DNA from: an uncultured Geobacter sp. | GTDB lineage: Bacteria > Desulfobacterota > Desulfuromonadia > Geobacterales > CAIOGM01 | Assembly: GCA_903857795.1 (NCBI GenBank) | Contig: CAIOGM010000041.1 | Location: forward strand, 1-53,357 | Reading direction: 5' to 3' | DNA length: 53,357 bases | Part shown: one piece after another, positions 6,383 through 37,217 of the stretch | Layout: every line of letters starts with the position of its first letter | Numbering within the stretch: position 1 is the first letter of the stretch | Notes under the pieces: generated by a model | What the model was told of the DNA's origin: nothing | Seen by the model: only the letters and a program-made list of their open reading frames with translations | Database searches by the model: none | Translations under genes and position numbers: made by a program

Positions 6383-6400
6383 TTGGCACAGCTCCTGCTA
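6383..6400 (+). promoter_or_regulatory. Sigma-54 (-24/-12) promoter of nifV
   Basis: TTGGCAC, five bases, CTGCTA. The -24 GG (6385-6386) and -12 GC (6397-6398) are exactly 10 bp apart, as sigma-54 requires. Transcription would start near 6410, which excludes the upstream ATG at 6405 and supports the nifV start at 6489. A 10-bp palindrome CACAATTGTG at 6318-6327 lies where an activator could bind. Confidence 0.82.
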
Positions 6401-6488
6401 GAGAATGAATGGGATCTACCAACTGCGAACAGACGGCAATGGCGCCTCAGAGGAGACTCTGGGGTTTTTTATTGCCGGGGGAGGGATC

Positions 6489-7709: not shown

Positions 7710-7771
7710 ATAATCCCGGCTAATGTTTTTTAAGAGTCTAATATAATTGTTTTTTTGTAGATTGCACCGGC

Positions 7772-7787
7772 TGGCACGGCTTGTGCT
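7772..7787 (+). promoter_or_regulatory. Sigma-54 promoter of the porin-amt1-glnK1 unit
   Basis: TGGCAC, five bases, GTGCT, with GG (7773-7774) and GC (7785-7786) 10 bp apart. Predicted start near 7797, giving a leader of about 110 bases before the porin gene. Confidence 0.8.
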
Positions 7788-7905
7788 CATGGGAATACAT
7801 CTTCGCGGAAGGGGGGGCTTGAAGAAGTCAGACGTGGGACCGGTTGTGGATGGACATGGGGCGGCCAGTGACGCCACCAATCTCAATGAAAGAGGAGAAA
7901 TGACG

Positions 7906-8727
7906 ATGAAAAAGATGATCAGCATGGCGGCAGCAGTATTCACCCTCGTGGGCGCGTTTTCCGGGATGGCCTTCGCCACCCCCTCCACCCAGATCTGGAT
8001 CCCCTCTACCGACATTCAGGCGTACAAGACCGTCCACCTGAATATCGATGGCTACTTCAGGGCATCCGGGGTCGGGAAAGCAACCGGCGATCCCACCAAG
8101 AGAGATCCCAATATGTATGATGTCGGACCGACAATAGGAATTTTGCCTTTTGAAAAAATCCAGATGGAGGTAGGCTTTGATTATCTGACAATGGCCACTG
8201 AACCCAATGACAATCGACCGTTCAGCGGTAATTTCAAACTTGGTACGCCTGAAGATTCTTTGTTTACCTATTCTCCTGCGCTGGCATTTGGTATGTATAA
8301 CATCGGAAAAGTTGCTCCAGGAACAACTGGTGGCATAGCGAATGCATCCTTAACTGCTTCCGGGCAAAATATACTGTACTTCCTTGCTGCCAAGACGCTT
8401 CCGGTCATGGGTCCGCTCCCTTCTTTGGGAAGAGTTTCTGCAGGTTATTATAATGGTGCCAAAAGTGCTTTGATTGGTCCGGAAGGCAACAGTTCTAACG
8501 ACGGTCTACTCCTCTCGTGGGATCGTACCATGACTGAACTCACCGATAAGTTGTGGTTGGGCGTTGACTTCATGAGTGGCCATAATGTCGACAGTTCAGT
8601 TAATTTTGGCGCATCATGGGCGTTCTCAAAAAATGTTTCTGTGATCTTAGGCTATGATATCTGGCTTGAGAAAGCGGTTGCTGGAAACAATACGGTCACT
8701 GTGCAGGTTGATATCAACTGGCCGTAG
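7906..8727 (+). CDS. Outer-membrane beta-barrel-like protein next to amt1
   Basis: A 273-residue exported protein. Signal peptide MKKMISMAAAVFTLVGAFSG with cleavage probably after AFA (about residue 24). The mature part has alternating hydrophobic/polar strands ending in an aromatic-rich C-terminus (VQVDINWP), as expected for a beta-barrel, but I cannot assign a named family. The second ATG is chosen because GAGGAG lies 8 bases upstream of it; the first ATG, two codons earlier, is too close. A sigma-54 promoter precedes it and an ammonium transporter follows, so it may be a channel induced under nitrogen limitation (inference). Confidence 0.7.
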   Translation: MKKMISMAAAVFTLVGAFSGMAFATPSTQIWIPSTDIQAYKTVHLNIDGYFRASGVGKATGDPTKRDPNMYDVGPTIGILPFEKIQMEVGFDYLTMATEPNDNRPFSGNFKLGTPEDSLFTYSPALAFGMYNIGKVAPGTTGGIANASLTASGQNILYFLAAKTLPVMGPLPSLGRVSAGYYNGAKSALIGPEGNSSNDGLLLSWDRTMTELTDKLWLGVDFMSGHNVDSSVNFGASWAFSKNVSVILGYDIWLEKAVAGNNTVTVQVDINWP

Positions 8728-8793
8728 TTCGAAAATATCCGGATATGGGGGGGGTACGCTTCCCCGTTCGCGATGAACTTAGTATCCACATAT

Positions 8794-8839
8794 GAAAGGG
8801 TCAACGGAGCCCCTTTCAACGTCTAAACGAAAGGGGCTC
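8794..8839 (+). promoter_or_regulatory. Two mutually exclusive hairpins covering the amt1 ribosome binding site
   Basis: Three complementary segments: GAAAGGG (8794-8800), GAGCCCCTTTC (8807-8817) and GAAAGGGGCTC (8829-8839). The middle segment can pair with the first (7 bp) or with the third (11 bp, 11-base loop). The third segment contains the AAGGGG that serves as the amt1 Shine-Dalgarno, so the second pairing would hide it. It could also act as a partial terminator between the porin gene and amt1. Pairings are read directly; regulation is inference. Confidence 0.6.
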
Positions 8840-8843
8840 GACC

Positions 8844-10385
8844 ATGGAAACGAAACTAAACTTACGTGACAAACTCAGACGTCTCGGAGAGAGGGCACAC
8901 AATCCGGAATGGCGCCGCTATGGATATCTTTTGGCTGCCGGCAAGGTTCTCGGTATTGCGTTGGTTTTATCTGTTATCGCACTGGCGTCCAATATCATTG
9001 GCACCGAGGTCCTGGCCGCCGACCCGGTGGTTAAACCGAACGACATTATTAACCCCCTGAACACTCTTTGGGTGTTGCTCGCGGCCTTCCTCGTCTTCGG
9101 CATGCAGGTCGGCTTTACCATGCTTGAGGCCGGCTTCTGTCGTTCTCGCGAAACGGTCAACGTCCTGATGGAATGTGTCGTTGATACCGCGCTTTGTGGA
9201 CTGCTTTTCTATGCATGGGGTTTTGCGTTCATGTTTGGATCGGGTACTCCCTGGATCGGGACTAAGTACTTCTTTCTTCAGGGGATACCGGCCACCTATG
9301 AAACCACAGGTGTTTCATTCCTCGCCTTTTGGCTGTTCCAGTTTGCCTTCGCCGATACCTGTTCCACGATTACTTCAGGCGCCATGATCGGCAGGACAGG
9401 GTTTATGGGCGACCTGATCTATAGCTTCGGGGTTTCAGGGTTCATCTACCCCATTATTGGCCATTGGGCCTGGGGACCTGACGGATTCCTCGCCAGTATG
9501 GGGAGCAAGGGGAACTTTCTCCCTGAACTCGGCACCTGCTTCCACGACTTTGCCGGATCGACGGTTGTCCACACCATCGGCGGTTTTGTCGCGCTGGCCG
9601 GCGCCATTGCACTTGGGCCGCGACTTGGTCGCAAGTTCAAGAGGGATGGCGGCGCTCCCATGTTGCCCCATGACCTTGTTATGGCGACCGTTGGCGGCTT
9701 GATCCTCTGGTTCGGTTGGTATGGTTTTAACCCGGGCAGTACTCTTTCGATAATGGACTTTGAAGGCTCCGGCCGCGTGGCTGCCAACACGACGTTAGCT
9801 GCATGTGCGGCAGCGTTGACCGCAATGTTTTACGGTTATCCGAAAACAAAAAAATGGGACGTAAGCTATACGGTCAACGGCTTCCTTGCCGGTCTCGTCG
9901 CTATTACCTGCCCCTGTTATTGGGTTTCCCCGGCCGGCTCAATAGCCATCGGTGCTGTCGCCGGCGTGATCGTGGTGGTCGGCGTCGATCTTCTGGAGTG
10001 GCTGCGGATCGATGACCCGATTGGTGCTGTCCCGGTTCATGGTTTGAACGGGATCTGGGGGACTCTTTCCCTGGGGTTTTTTGCTTGCGGCAAGTACGGA
10101 GTAACCGGGCCTTTCGCTGCCGATAATACTGCTCCTCTTACCGGACTCTTTTACGGCGGAGGGACGACGGTTCTTGCCGCGCAGGCTGTCGGGAGTCTCA
10201 TTATTACAGCCGCAACATTCTCTGTCAGCTTACTGCTCATGTATATGGTTAAGGCGATGGGGCTACTTCGAGTCTCCAAGGCTGGAGAGCTACAGGGGAT
10301 AGATAACTACGAACATGGCATCGGGGCTTATCCGGAGTATGCTCTCAAGCAATCCGCCATGCCTCAGTACGATATCGAGGAGTAA
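8844..10385 (+). CDS. amtB: Ammonium transporter (Amt/Rh family), copy 1
   Basis: A 513-residue inner-membrane ammonium channel/transporter with 11 core membrane segments. The conserved pore residues are visible: the first His in DFAGSTVVHTIGG and the second in VPVHGLNGIWGTLS; also the family signature TMLEAGFCRSRETVN. Unlike AmtB it carries an N-terminal extension of about 60 residues with a basic cytosolic part (RRLGERAHNPEWRR) and an extra hydrophobic segment ending in VLAADP, possibly a late signal sequence. The ribosome binding site sits inside a hairpin stem. glnK1 follows 30 bp downstream, so its product probably blocks the channel when nitrogen is sufficient. Co-transcribed with the porin gene from a sigma-54 promoter. 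Confidence 0.93.
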   Translation: METKLNLRDKLRRLGERAHNPEWRRYGYLLAAGKVLGIALVLSVIALASNIIGTEVLAADPVVKPNDIINPLNTLWVLLAAFLVFGMQVGFTMLEAGFCRSRETVNVLMECVVDTALCGLLFYAWGFAFMFGSGTPWIGTKYFFLQGIPATYETTGVSFLAFWLFQFAFADTCSTITSGAMIGRTGFMGDLIYSFGVSGFIYPIIGHWAWGPDGFLASMGSKGNFLPELGTCFHDFAGSTVVHTIGGFVALAGAIALGPRLGRKFKRDGGAPMLPHDLVMATVGGLILWFGWYGFNPGSTLSIMDFEGSGRVAANTTLAACAAALTAMFYGYPKTKKWDVSYTVNGFLAGLVAITCPCYWVSPAGSIAIGAVAGVIVVVGVDLLEWLRIDDPIGAVPVHGLNGIWGTLSLGFFACGKYGVTGPFAADNTAPLTGLFYGGGTTVLAAQAVGSLIITAATFSVSLLLMYMVKAMGLLRVSKAGELQGIDNYEHGIGAYPEYALKQSAMPQYDIEE

Positions 10386-10403: not shown

Positions 10404-10754
<351 letters not shown>

Positions 10755-11358: not shown

Positions 11359-11838
<480 letters not shown>

Positions 11839-36243: not shown

Positions 36244-37217
36244 GTTGCCCCCTCCTGGAGACGCGAGGGGTGACCAAGGAGTTCCCGGTGCAACGGGGGC
36301 TTTTTGGTAACAAGCAGCTGCTGCGAGCCGTGGATGGGGTCGATCTCCGCCTGGAAGAGGGGGAGACCCTGGGGCTGGTGGGGGAGTCGGGGTGCGGCAA
36401 GTCTACCATCGCCAAGCTCCTCATGAACCTGATCCCCCCGACTCGTGGGACGATCTCGTTTCAGGGAGTGCGGTTGGATACCCTGGGGAGGAGCGAACTC
36501 TTCGCCTTTCGCCGGAAGGTGCAGATGATCTTCCAGGACCCCCAGGCCTCCCTCAACCCCCGGATGCGGGTGGGGGAGATCATCGGCGAGCCGCTCAAGA
36601 TCCATCGGCTGGTGTCACGGGGCGAGTATCGTGACCGGGTGGTGGAGCTGATGCGCCGGGTGGGGCTCCATGCCGACCATTTCAACCGTTACCCCCACGA
36701 GTTCTCGGGGGGGCAGCGACAGCGCATCGGCATTGCCCGGGCCCTGGCGGTCAACCCCAGGCTCCTCATCGCCGATGAACCGGTCTCGGCCCTGGATATC
36801 TCCATCCAGGCCCAGATCATCAACCTGCTCCAGGAGCTCCGCCATGACTTCGGGCTCTCCATGCTCTTCATCGCCCACGACCTGTCGGTGGTTCGGCACC
36901 TGAGCAGCAGTATCGCCATCATGTATCTGGGGCGGGTCGTGGAGCGGGGGGGGAGAGACGCCGTCTTCCTGCGCTTTCTCCACCCCTATACCGAGGCGCT
37001 GATCTCGGCCATCCCGACCCTGCGCCCAGGCGGCAAGAGCCGACGGATCATCCTCCAGGGGGATCCGCCGACCGCTCTCTCCCCCCCCGCCGGCTGCCCG
37101 TTCCATCCCCGTTGTTGCCATGCGCAGCCGCTCTGCTCCCGGGAGATTCCCCCGCTGCAGGAGAAGGAGCCGGGTCACTGGGCGGCGTGTCACTTTAGTG
37201 GGAAAATATATCGTTAA
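36240..37217 (+). CDS. dppF: Dipeptide/oligopeptide ABC transporter ATPase, DppF type
   Basis: A 325-residue ABC ATPase, partner of the preceding gene. Motifs: Walker [10 protein letters not shown]-loop FQDPQASLNPRM, signature FSGGQRQRI, Walker B LLIADEPVSALDI, H-loop AHD, and a C-terminal GCPFHPRC motif. The ATG overlaps the dppD stop. It shows the usual DppF/OppF pattern, including an N-terminal insertion (VQRGLFGNKQLLRAVDG). Together with DppD it would energise uptake of small peptides through permeases located elsewhere. Confidence 0.88.
   Translation: MSCPLLETRGVTKEFPVQRGLFGNKQLLRAVDGVDLRLEEGETLGLVGESGCGKSTIAKLLMNLIPPTRGTISFQGVRLDTLGRSELFAFRRKVQMIFQDPQASLNPRMRVGEIIGEPLKIHRLVSRGEYRDRVVELMRRVGLHADHFNRYPHEFSGGQRQRIGIARALAVNPRLLIADEPVSALDISIQAQIINLLQELRHDFGLSMLFIAHDLSVVRHLSSSIAIMYLGRVVERGGRDAVFLRFLHPYTEALISAIPTLRPGGKSRRIILQGDPPTALSPPAGCPFHPRCCHAQPLCSREIPPLQEKEPGHWAACHFSGKIYR

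Follow-up and report, generated by a model that had tools for sequence, protein, structure and literature searches.

A conserved hairpin before the amt1 ribosome binding site in an uncultured Geobacter: a candidate single-hexaloop ANTAR-target switch of translation

The 53,357 nucleotide stretch of an uncultured Geobacter sp. analysed here, referred to as the window, carries an ammonium transporter gene, amt1, whose Shine-Dalgarno sequence can be paired by an upstream segment that is also the arm of a different hairpin. This raises the question of whether the two pairings form a switch for amt1 translation and, if they do, what operates it. The locus has the following features.

7772 to 7787, + strand: promoter-like site of the sigma-54 type, TGGCACGGCTTGTGC, for the porin-amt1 unit (pattern match)
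7900 to 8727, + strand: porin-like gene, an ORF with no Pfam or NCBIfam family match; the porin assignment is from the preliminary description
8746 to 8766, + strand: hairpin 3' of the porin gene; in relatives this place is taken by an intrinsic terminator and its U run
8844 to 10385, + strand: amt1, ammonium transporter of 513 aa (PF00909, 1.1e-110; TIGR00836 above cut-off)
10404 to 10754, + strand: P-II (glnK/glnB) gene 3' of amt1 (PF00543, 5.1e-34)

The preliminary description placed amt1 in a sigma-54 unit, and this is supported by the promoter-like site at 7772; the porin genes of relatives are preceded by matching sigma-54-type sites. Homologues of the porin-like gene are present in 121 of 141 genomes of the order. 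The terminator that follows the gene has lost its U run in the window. A second sigma-54-like site, CTGGCACAATCTGTGCT, is at 11427, 5' of the glnK2, amt2, and histidine kinase genes. The amt1 gene itself (8844-10385) encodes a patchily distributed Amt type, the best relatives outside the order being from Acidobacteria and Nostocales (70-76% identity), a distribution suggesting horizontal spread. A plasmid search found nothing.

Between the porin-like gene and amt1, the leader reads from 8794 as GAAAGGGTC, the loop AACGGA, and GCCCCTTTC to 8817, followed by the linker AACGTCTAAAC (8818-8828), GAAAGGGGCTC (8829-8839), GACC, and the ATG at 8844. Within this, the element consists of the following parts.

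8794 to 8802, + strand: 5' arm of the ANTAR-type hairpin, being segment 1 with U8801 and C8802; GRAAGGGUC is conserved in 9 genomes
8803 to 8808, + strand: hexaloop AACGGA, with A8803 as loop position 1 and G8806 as position 4, the ANTAR-target signature
8809 to 8817, + strand: 3' arm of the hairpin, the anti-Shine-Dalgarno segment GCCCCUUUC (segment 2), which can partner 8794-8802 or 8829-8837, not both
8807 to 8839, + strand: sequestering hairpin, a perfect inverted repeat of 8807-8817 with 8829-8839 (11 bp) around an 11 nt loop (8818-8828)
8829 to 8836, + strand: amt1 Shine-Dalgarno sequence GAAAGGGG (segment 3), 7 nt 5' of the ATG at 8844; GAAAGG is present in 9 of 9 orthologous leaders

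The complementarities are exactly as had been claimed for a segment 2 able to pair with either neighbour. CCCTTTC (8811-8817) is the exact complement of GAAAGGG in segment 1 (8794-8800), segment 3 (8829-8839) makes 11 perfect pairs with 8807-8817, and the Shine-Dalgarno sequence does lie inside segment 3. The first of these pairings extends further, with G8809 and C8810 added to segment 2 and U8801 and C8802 to segment 1. The resulting 9 nt arms form eight pairs and one U.C mismatch, with a C-G pair closing the six-base loop and the mismatch, which is conserved, directly beneath it. The consensus of segments 1 and 2 is GRAAGGGUC[AAYGGN]GCCYCUUUC. Segment 2 resembles the 3' end of the 16S rRNA. 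The hairpin of segments 1 and 2 ends approximately 12 nt 5' of the Shine-Dalgarno sequence (10 to 12 nt across nine genomes) and 27 nt 5' of the start codon.

Such an arrangement is seldom produced by chance. When the 116 bp intergenic stretch was dinucleotide-shuffled 3000 times, an exact inverted repeat (arms of 11 or more, loop of 3 to 15) arose in one shuffle and the three-way arrangement of exact 7-mers in 22. The window as a whole has 2 such three-way 7-mer layouts, where 12 shuffles gave 0.75 on average. The folding of the 143 nt leader is 3.3 sd below that of its shuffles. The minimum free energy state is predicted to be the sequestered one (-26.5 kcal/mol), with the Shine-Dalgarno sequence fully paired, and its accessibility of 0.00 makes it the most occluded, tied with one gene, among the 35 genes of the window that have a recognisable Shine-Dalgarno sequence (median 0.50). 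The gene start at 36288 is another whose Shine-Dalgarno sequence is wholly paired in the predicted fold, with an accessibility of 0.00 and a leader of -39.9 kcal/mol. When the hairpin of segments 1 and 2 is enforced, the amt1 leader folds at -16.9 kcal/mol and the accessibility of its Shine-Dalgarno sequence rises from 0.00 to 0.66; in the folding model this hairpin and the pairing of segment 2 with the Shine-Dalgarno sequence are mutually exclusive.

The order was searched for the pattern GRAAGGGTCAAYGGNGCCYCTTTCRA, allowing up to 3 mismatches, in 141 genomes. It is present in 9 of these, from four families, while the reversed pattern used as a control gave 1 match, and all nine matches are directly 3' of a porin-like gene and 5' of a transporter gene. 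A covariance model recovered the same nine at 52 to 60 bits and everything else at 26 bits or below in 138 genomes of the order. The matches below 26 bits are mostly coding or unrelated, except for those in genomes G109 and G135, which are real divergent copies before the same permease. The same model, run over 277 genomes of the class, gave no further strong copies. A different family of this class has GAAAGGC[AATAGT]GCCTTTC followed by AGAAAGGAGG 5' of an apparent ribosomal protein L10 gene (L195:1480-1560); this hairpin is of a similar anti-Shine-Dalgarno type, has a loop lacking G at position 4, and is perhaps an L10 leader.

In the nine genomes the gene 3' of the element is amt1 in three, a different Amt (approximately 43% identical) in two, and an AA_permease in four. 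The downstream gene therefore varies while the element stays, and the element has outlived the replacement of the gene that it precedes. The permease leaders of G109, G135, and G136 carry three further, divergent copies, and those of G022, G043, and G044 have a shorter relative of the element. The permease loci were located with an approximate query, 87% identical to the real protein of G010 and used for locus finding only. In the order, the closest homologues of amt1 (approximately 90% identical) are in G048 and G026, and the motif is common to both while the surrounding intergenic sequence has diverged. Homologues of amt1 from further afield (Acidobacteria, Nostocales, and others; 70-76% identical) were seen by inspection to lack the element, which makes it a trait of the host lineage and not of the transporter gene.

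Loss of complementarity in close relatives, which would have spoken against a switch, was not seen. The hairpin of segments 1 and 2 is paired in 100% of cells of the alignment of nine orthologous leaders, where the variation is one-sided only, and the inner six pairs of segment 2 with GAAAGG are kept in 9 of 9. The 11 bp form of this second pairing, to which the preliminary description had drawn attention, does exist in the window; the extension is private to this genome. Compensatory changes had also been named as a check, and none were found in either pairing beyond those in shuffled controls among the nine leaders. The structural claim therefore rests on conservation, on the exclusive pairing, and on the identity of the loop, and conservation by itself cannot tell RNA structure from other constraints. 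Enforcing the hairpin of segments 1 and 2 raises the predicted accessibility of the Shine-Dalgarno sequence in 9 of the 10 leaders with the segment 2 core (the nine genomes and G109), G024 being the exception. Among the divergent leaders (G022, G043, G044, G135, and G136) it does so in G136 only. These five have kept the hexaloop and have a match of just 4 bp between the arm and the Shine-Dalgarno sequence, thus sequestering is not universal. Judged from sequence comparison, the element is neither a chance occurrence nor a private oddity, and the switch-like layout that had been described holds as a genuine pair of mutually exclusive structures, both kept in the nine orthologous leaders and both seen in folding.

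It is the loop that suggests what may operate the switch. All 15 single-hairpin leaders have A at position 1 and G at position 4, and the bases at positions 2, 3, 5, and 6 differ between them; the loop in the window, AACGGA, has both. Where the sixth base is U, a pair between A1 and U6 is conceivable, which qualifies the strict hexaloop; several attenuator loops have this feature as well. A hexaloop with A1 and G4 is the defining signature of ANTAR-target RNAs (PMC3369931), and the G4 of the loop stacks on Tyr164 of EutV (PMC8934654). The minimal ANTAR site has been redefined as one hexaloop, and single-hexaloop sites may exist where the polymerase sets no time (PMC8934654); such sites have been predicted (Walshe 2022). 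Known targets have two hexaloops, and in the scanned leaders a second AxxGxx hairpin with 5 or more pairs turned up only in isolated, unconserved cases. Nor is the competing structure an intrinsic terminator, since there is no U run after the element, as there is in the nifH, porin, and glnK leaders; a terminator scan does not list the site, which lacks a GC stem followed by a U run, and on the absence of the U run the identification of the element as a terminator was rejected. The competing structure that binding would prevent is instead the pairing of segment 2 with the Shine-Dalgarno sequence, which is weak in 5 of 15 leaders. With a hexaloop and a competitor present, and a second hexaloop and a terminator absent, the element is therefore classed as a candidate ANTAR-like switch, not as a classical ANTAR antiterminator.

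The loop also speaks against a switch working without any protein, where segment 2 sequesters the Shine-Dalgarno sequence and the hairpin of segments 1 and 2 only sets the path or timing of folding, so that amt1 translation is lowered relative to that of the porin or is coupled to ribosome traffic. Such a device would account for the strong 11 bp sequestering stem of this genome and for the predicted occlusion, and leaves the invariant A1 and G4 (15 of 15) unexplained, because nothing would preserve these bases in a loop that is not bound; it is considered unlikely.

Other ligands were weighed on the same leaders. The loop in the window contains ACGGA, which we take to be a CsrA-like core, and the Shine-Dalgarno sequences of relatives contain AAGGA, so that CsrA/RsmA could bind at the GGA of the loop and of the Shine-Dalgarno sequence. 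However, GGA is not conserved in the loop, being absent from most (AACGGG, AATGGC, AACGAA, AATGGT), and the CsrA/RsmA target was rejected. A small molecule acting through a riboswitch would have to be sensed by a single short hairpin that lacks any conserved internal pocket; the curated Rfam models gave no match at the gathering threshold, only a chance match to mir-202 (E 1.7), and this candidate was rejected too. Control by another protein or by a small molecule is thus extremely unlikely. A leader peptide was also rejected: the ATG at 8792 opens a frame of 25 codons overlapping amt1, and relatives have no ATG there.

An ANTAR protein is available in this genome. A single PF03861 protein was identified (1.7e-20), a REC-ANTAR protein of 188 aa (PF00072 and PF03861) encoded immediately 5' of nifH, which we take to be GnfR-like. 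It aligns over its whole length with EutV and with Mycobacterium Rv1626 (1s8n), and keeps the RNA-contacting residues aligned with EutV Arg142, Lys143, Lys147, Lys149, and Met172, while Tyr164 is replaced by Phe, as in Rv1626; in the EutV numbering, which was inferred, Tyr164 and Met172 were placed on the alignment. PF03861 was found by profile search in 128 of 138 genomes of the order, and because ANTAR proteins are so common there, their co-occurrence with the element carries little weight. In some genomes (G004, G005, G012, and G013) the ANTAR gene is beside the porin gene by coordinates. G010 has the element and no PF03861 match; the region 5' of its nifH fragment, where the gene would be expected, reads N, and G010 is therefore not a counter-example.

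In the order, the leaders after the sigma-54 promoters of porin, glnK, amt, and nifH carry a pair of hexaloop hairpins. The first is, for example, GCAC[AAYGNN]GUGC, with stems that vary and keep their pairing (ACAC/GUGU, AUAC/GUAU, GAAGAC/GUCUUC); the second, GGC[AANGGC]GCC, overlaps an intrinsic terminator that ends in a U run. G4 is present in 20 of 20 loops of the first kind (P1) and 20 of 20 of the second (P2), as tabulated by eye. By their sequence, these leaders are the canonical ANTAR antiterminator. On contig 26 of genome G000 (L196:1260-2097), the REC-ANTAR gene is followed by a sigma-54-like site, an attenuator of this kind (GAAGAC[GCAGGA]GTCTTC and then GGC[AAAGGC]GCC) with its terminator, and nifH. 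A model of the dual-hexaloop leader (R2) gave nothing above threshold in this genome, which does have the motif before nifH, as found by eye; that leader was badly aligned in the seed. In the window, the porin leader (7747-7906) has no recognisable canonical ANTAR attenuator, unlike most relatives. The nifV (HMGL-like/homocitrate synthase) leader at 6384-6470 has a sigma-54-like TTGGCACAGCTCCTGCT and then GGC[AATGGC]GCC; this hairpin overlaps with a terminator ending in TTTTTT and looks like an ANTAR P2 attenuator, with no first hairpin recognised.

The element could accordingly be seen as a relic or part of such an attenuator, acting on transcription, its terminator either lost or located upstream, after the porin gene. 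U-run terminators do lie between the porin gene and the element in most relatives. In G135 and G136 (L187 and L192) a sigma-54-like promoter and a terminator are directly 5' of the element, and the permease gene follows it; no porin ORF intervenes, which gives the impression that the unit has lost its porin gene. Yet there is no U run 3' of the element, nor after the porin gene in the window, the distance from the element to the Shine-Dalgarno sequence is near-fixed, and the element, sitting 3' of the post-porin terminator, cannot prevent the formation of that terminator. This origin or role is very unlikely.

The preferred reading, to which a probability of roughly 0.6 is given, is that the element is a single-hexaloop ANTAR-target RNA that serves as a translational ON switch operated by GnfR. 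The preliminary description had allowed translation of the upstream porin gene, a protein, or a small molecule as the trigger; the A1 and G4 loop, the ANTAR attenuators, and the ANTAR gene point to a protein, of ANTAR type, and away from the others. By default, segment 2 would pair with the Shine-Dalgarno sequence and amt1 would be poorly translated from the sigma-54 transcript. Nitrogen scarcity would lead to the phosphorylation of GnfR, the nif-linked response regulator, which would then bind G4 of the hexaloop and hold the hairpin of segments 1 and 2, keeping segment 2 off the Shine-Dalgarno sequence so that the ribosome could bind and the transporter be made. GnfR binding, the sign of the regulation, and the nitrogen signal are what we infer here. 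The spacing of the hairpin from the start codon and the Shine-Dalgarno sequence suits activation, not a roadblock. As the sequestered fold is approximately 10 kcal/mol more stable, GnfR would act before segment 3 is fully transcribed, or the leader would be strongly off without it. Against an ON switch are the absence of a second hexaloop, which published ANTAR antiterminators require, and the conserved U.C mismatch in the stem of segments 1 and 2.

The opposite sign has a precedent, since actinobacterial ANTAR RNAs that overlap the ribosome binding site repress translation, as in mycobacteria (PMC8164766). GnfR on a hairpin near the ribosome binding site would in that case hinder ribosomes and repress amt1, and the sequestering pairing would be secondary. 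However, the hairpin here excludes the Shine-Dalgarno sequence, by a gap that is kept in the nine genomes, and it would be odd for a nifH-adjacent nitrogen regulator linked to antitermination to repress an ammonium transporter. Repression is decidedly unlikely.

The known role of ANTAR proteins is antitermination, for which two hexaloops are needed. The structure of 2022 left open whether single-hexaloop sites have any role in cells where the polymerase sets no pace, and the element, with one hexaloop, is a compact, conserved, and testable candidate for such a role. If the ON switch is real, a nif-linked regulator may switch on translation and not only prevent transcription termination, which would explain how ammonium uptake is set apart from the other genes on a shared sigma-54 transcript. 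A literature search found no natural example of an ANTAR protein activating translation. It is about an even chance that a natural ANTAR regulator does so here through a single-hexaloop hairpin, one nif-linked regulator thereby exerting two layers of control in one sigma-54 regulon. The nif, glnK, and porin genes would be controlled by antitermination in their leaders, and the transporter genes by a switch of translation.

In Geobacter, Ueki and Lovley reportedly described in 2010 an ANTAR response regulator that controls nitrogen genes after sigma-54 promoters by antitermination. The protein encoded here resembles this regulator, GnfR, in being an ANTAR response regulator, with a gene that adjoins nifH, and the nitrogen genes again follow sigma-54 promoters; it differs in that translation of an ammonium transporter is the proposed target. 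With the ANTAR-target RNAs bound by EutV, NasR, and AmiR, the element shares a hairpin with a six-base loop in which A1 and G4 are invariant, the association with nitrogen genes, the presence of a genome-encoded REC-ANTAR protein, and a stem set against a second structure (PMC3369931, PMC8934654). It has one hexaloop where they have two, and its competitor hides a Shine-Dalgarno sequence where theirs forms a terminator. Like the actinobacterial ANTAR RNAs (PMC8164766), it is at a ribosome binding site and would control translation, but there the ribosome binding site or start codon is within a dual hairpin and binding represses, whereas here the site is not part of the hairpin and should be released on binding.

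An engineered counterpart of the proposed switch uses NmPAL, an ANTAR-containing photoreceptor. The NmPAL riboptoregulator of 2024 is a two-state design with which protein-dependent translation was obtained (PMC11381354). Its closed state masks the Shine-Dalgarno sequence, its open state presents a hairpin recognised by the RNA-binding protein, and its equilibrium is tilted to the closed state so that binding turns translation on, as is proposed here. That device is synthetic, light-driven, and based on another aptamer, whereas the element in the ammonium transporter leader would be its natural, nitrogen-linked counterpart.
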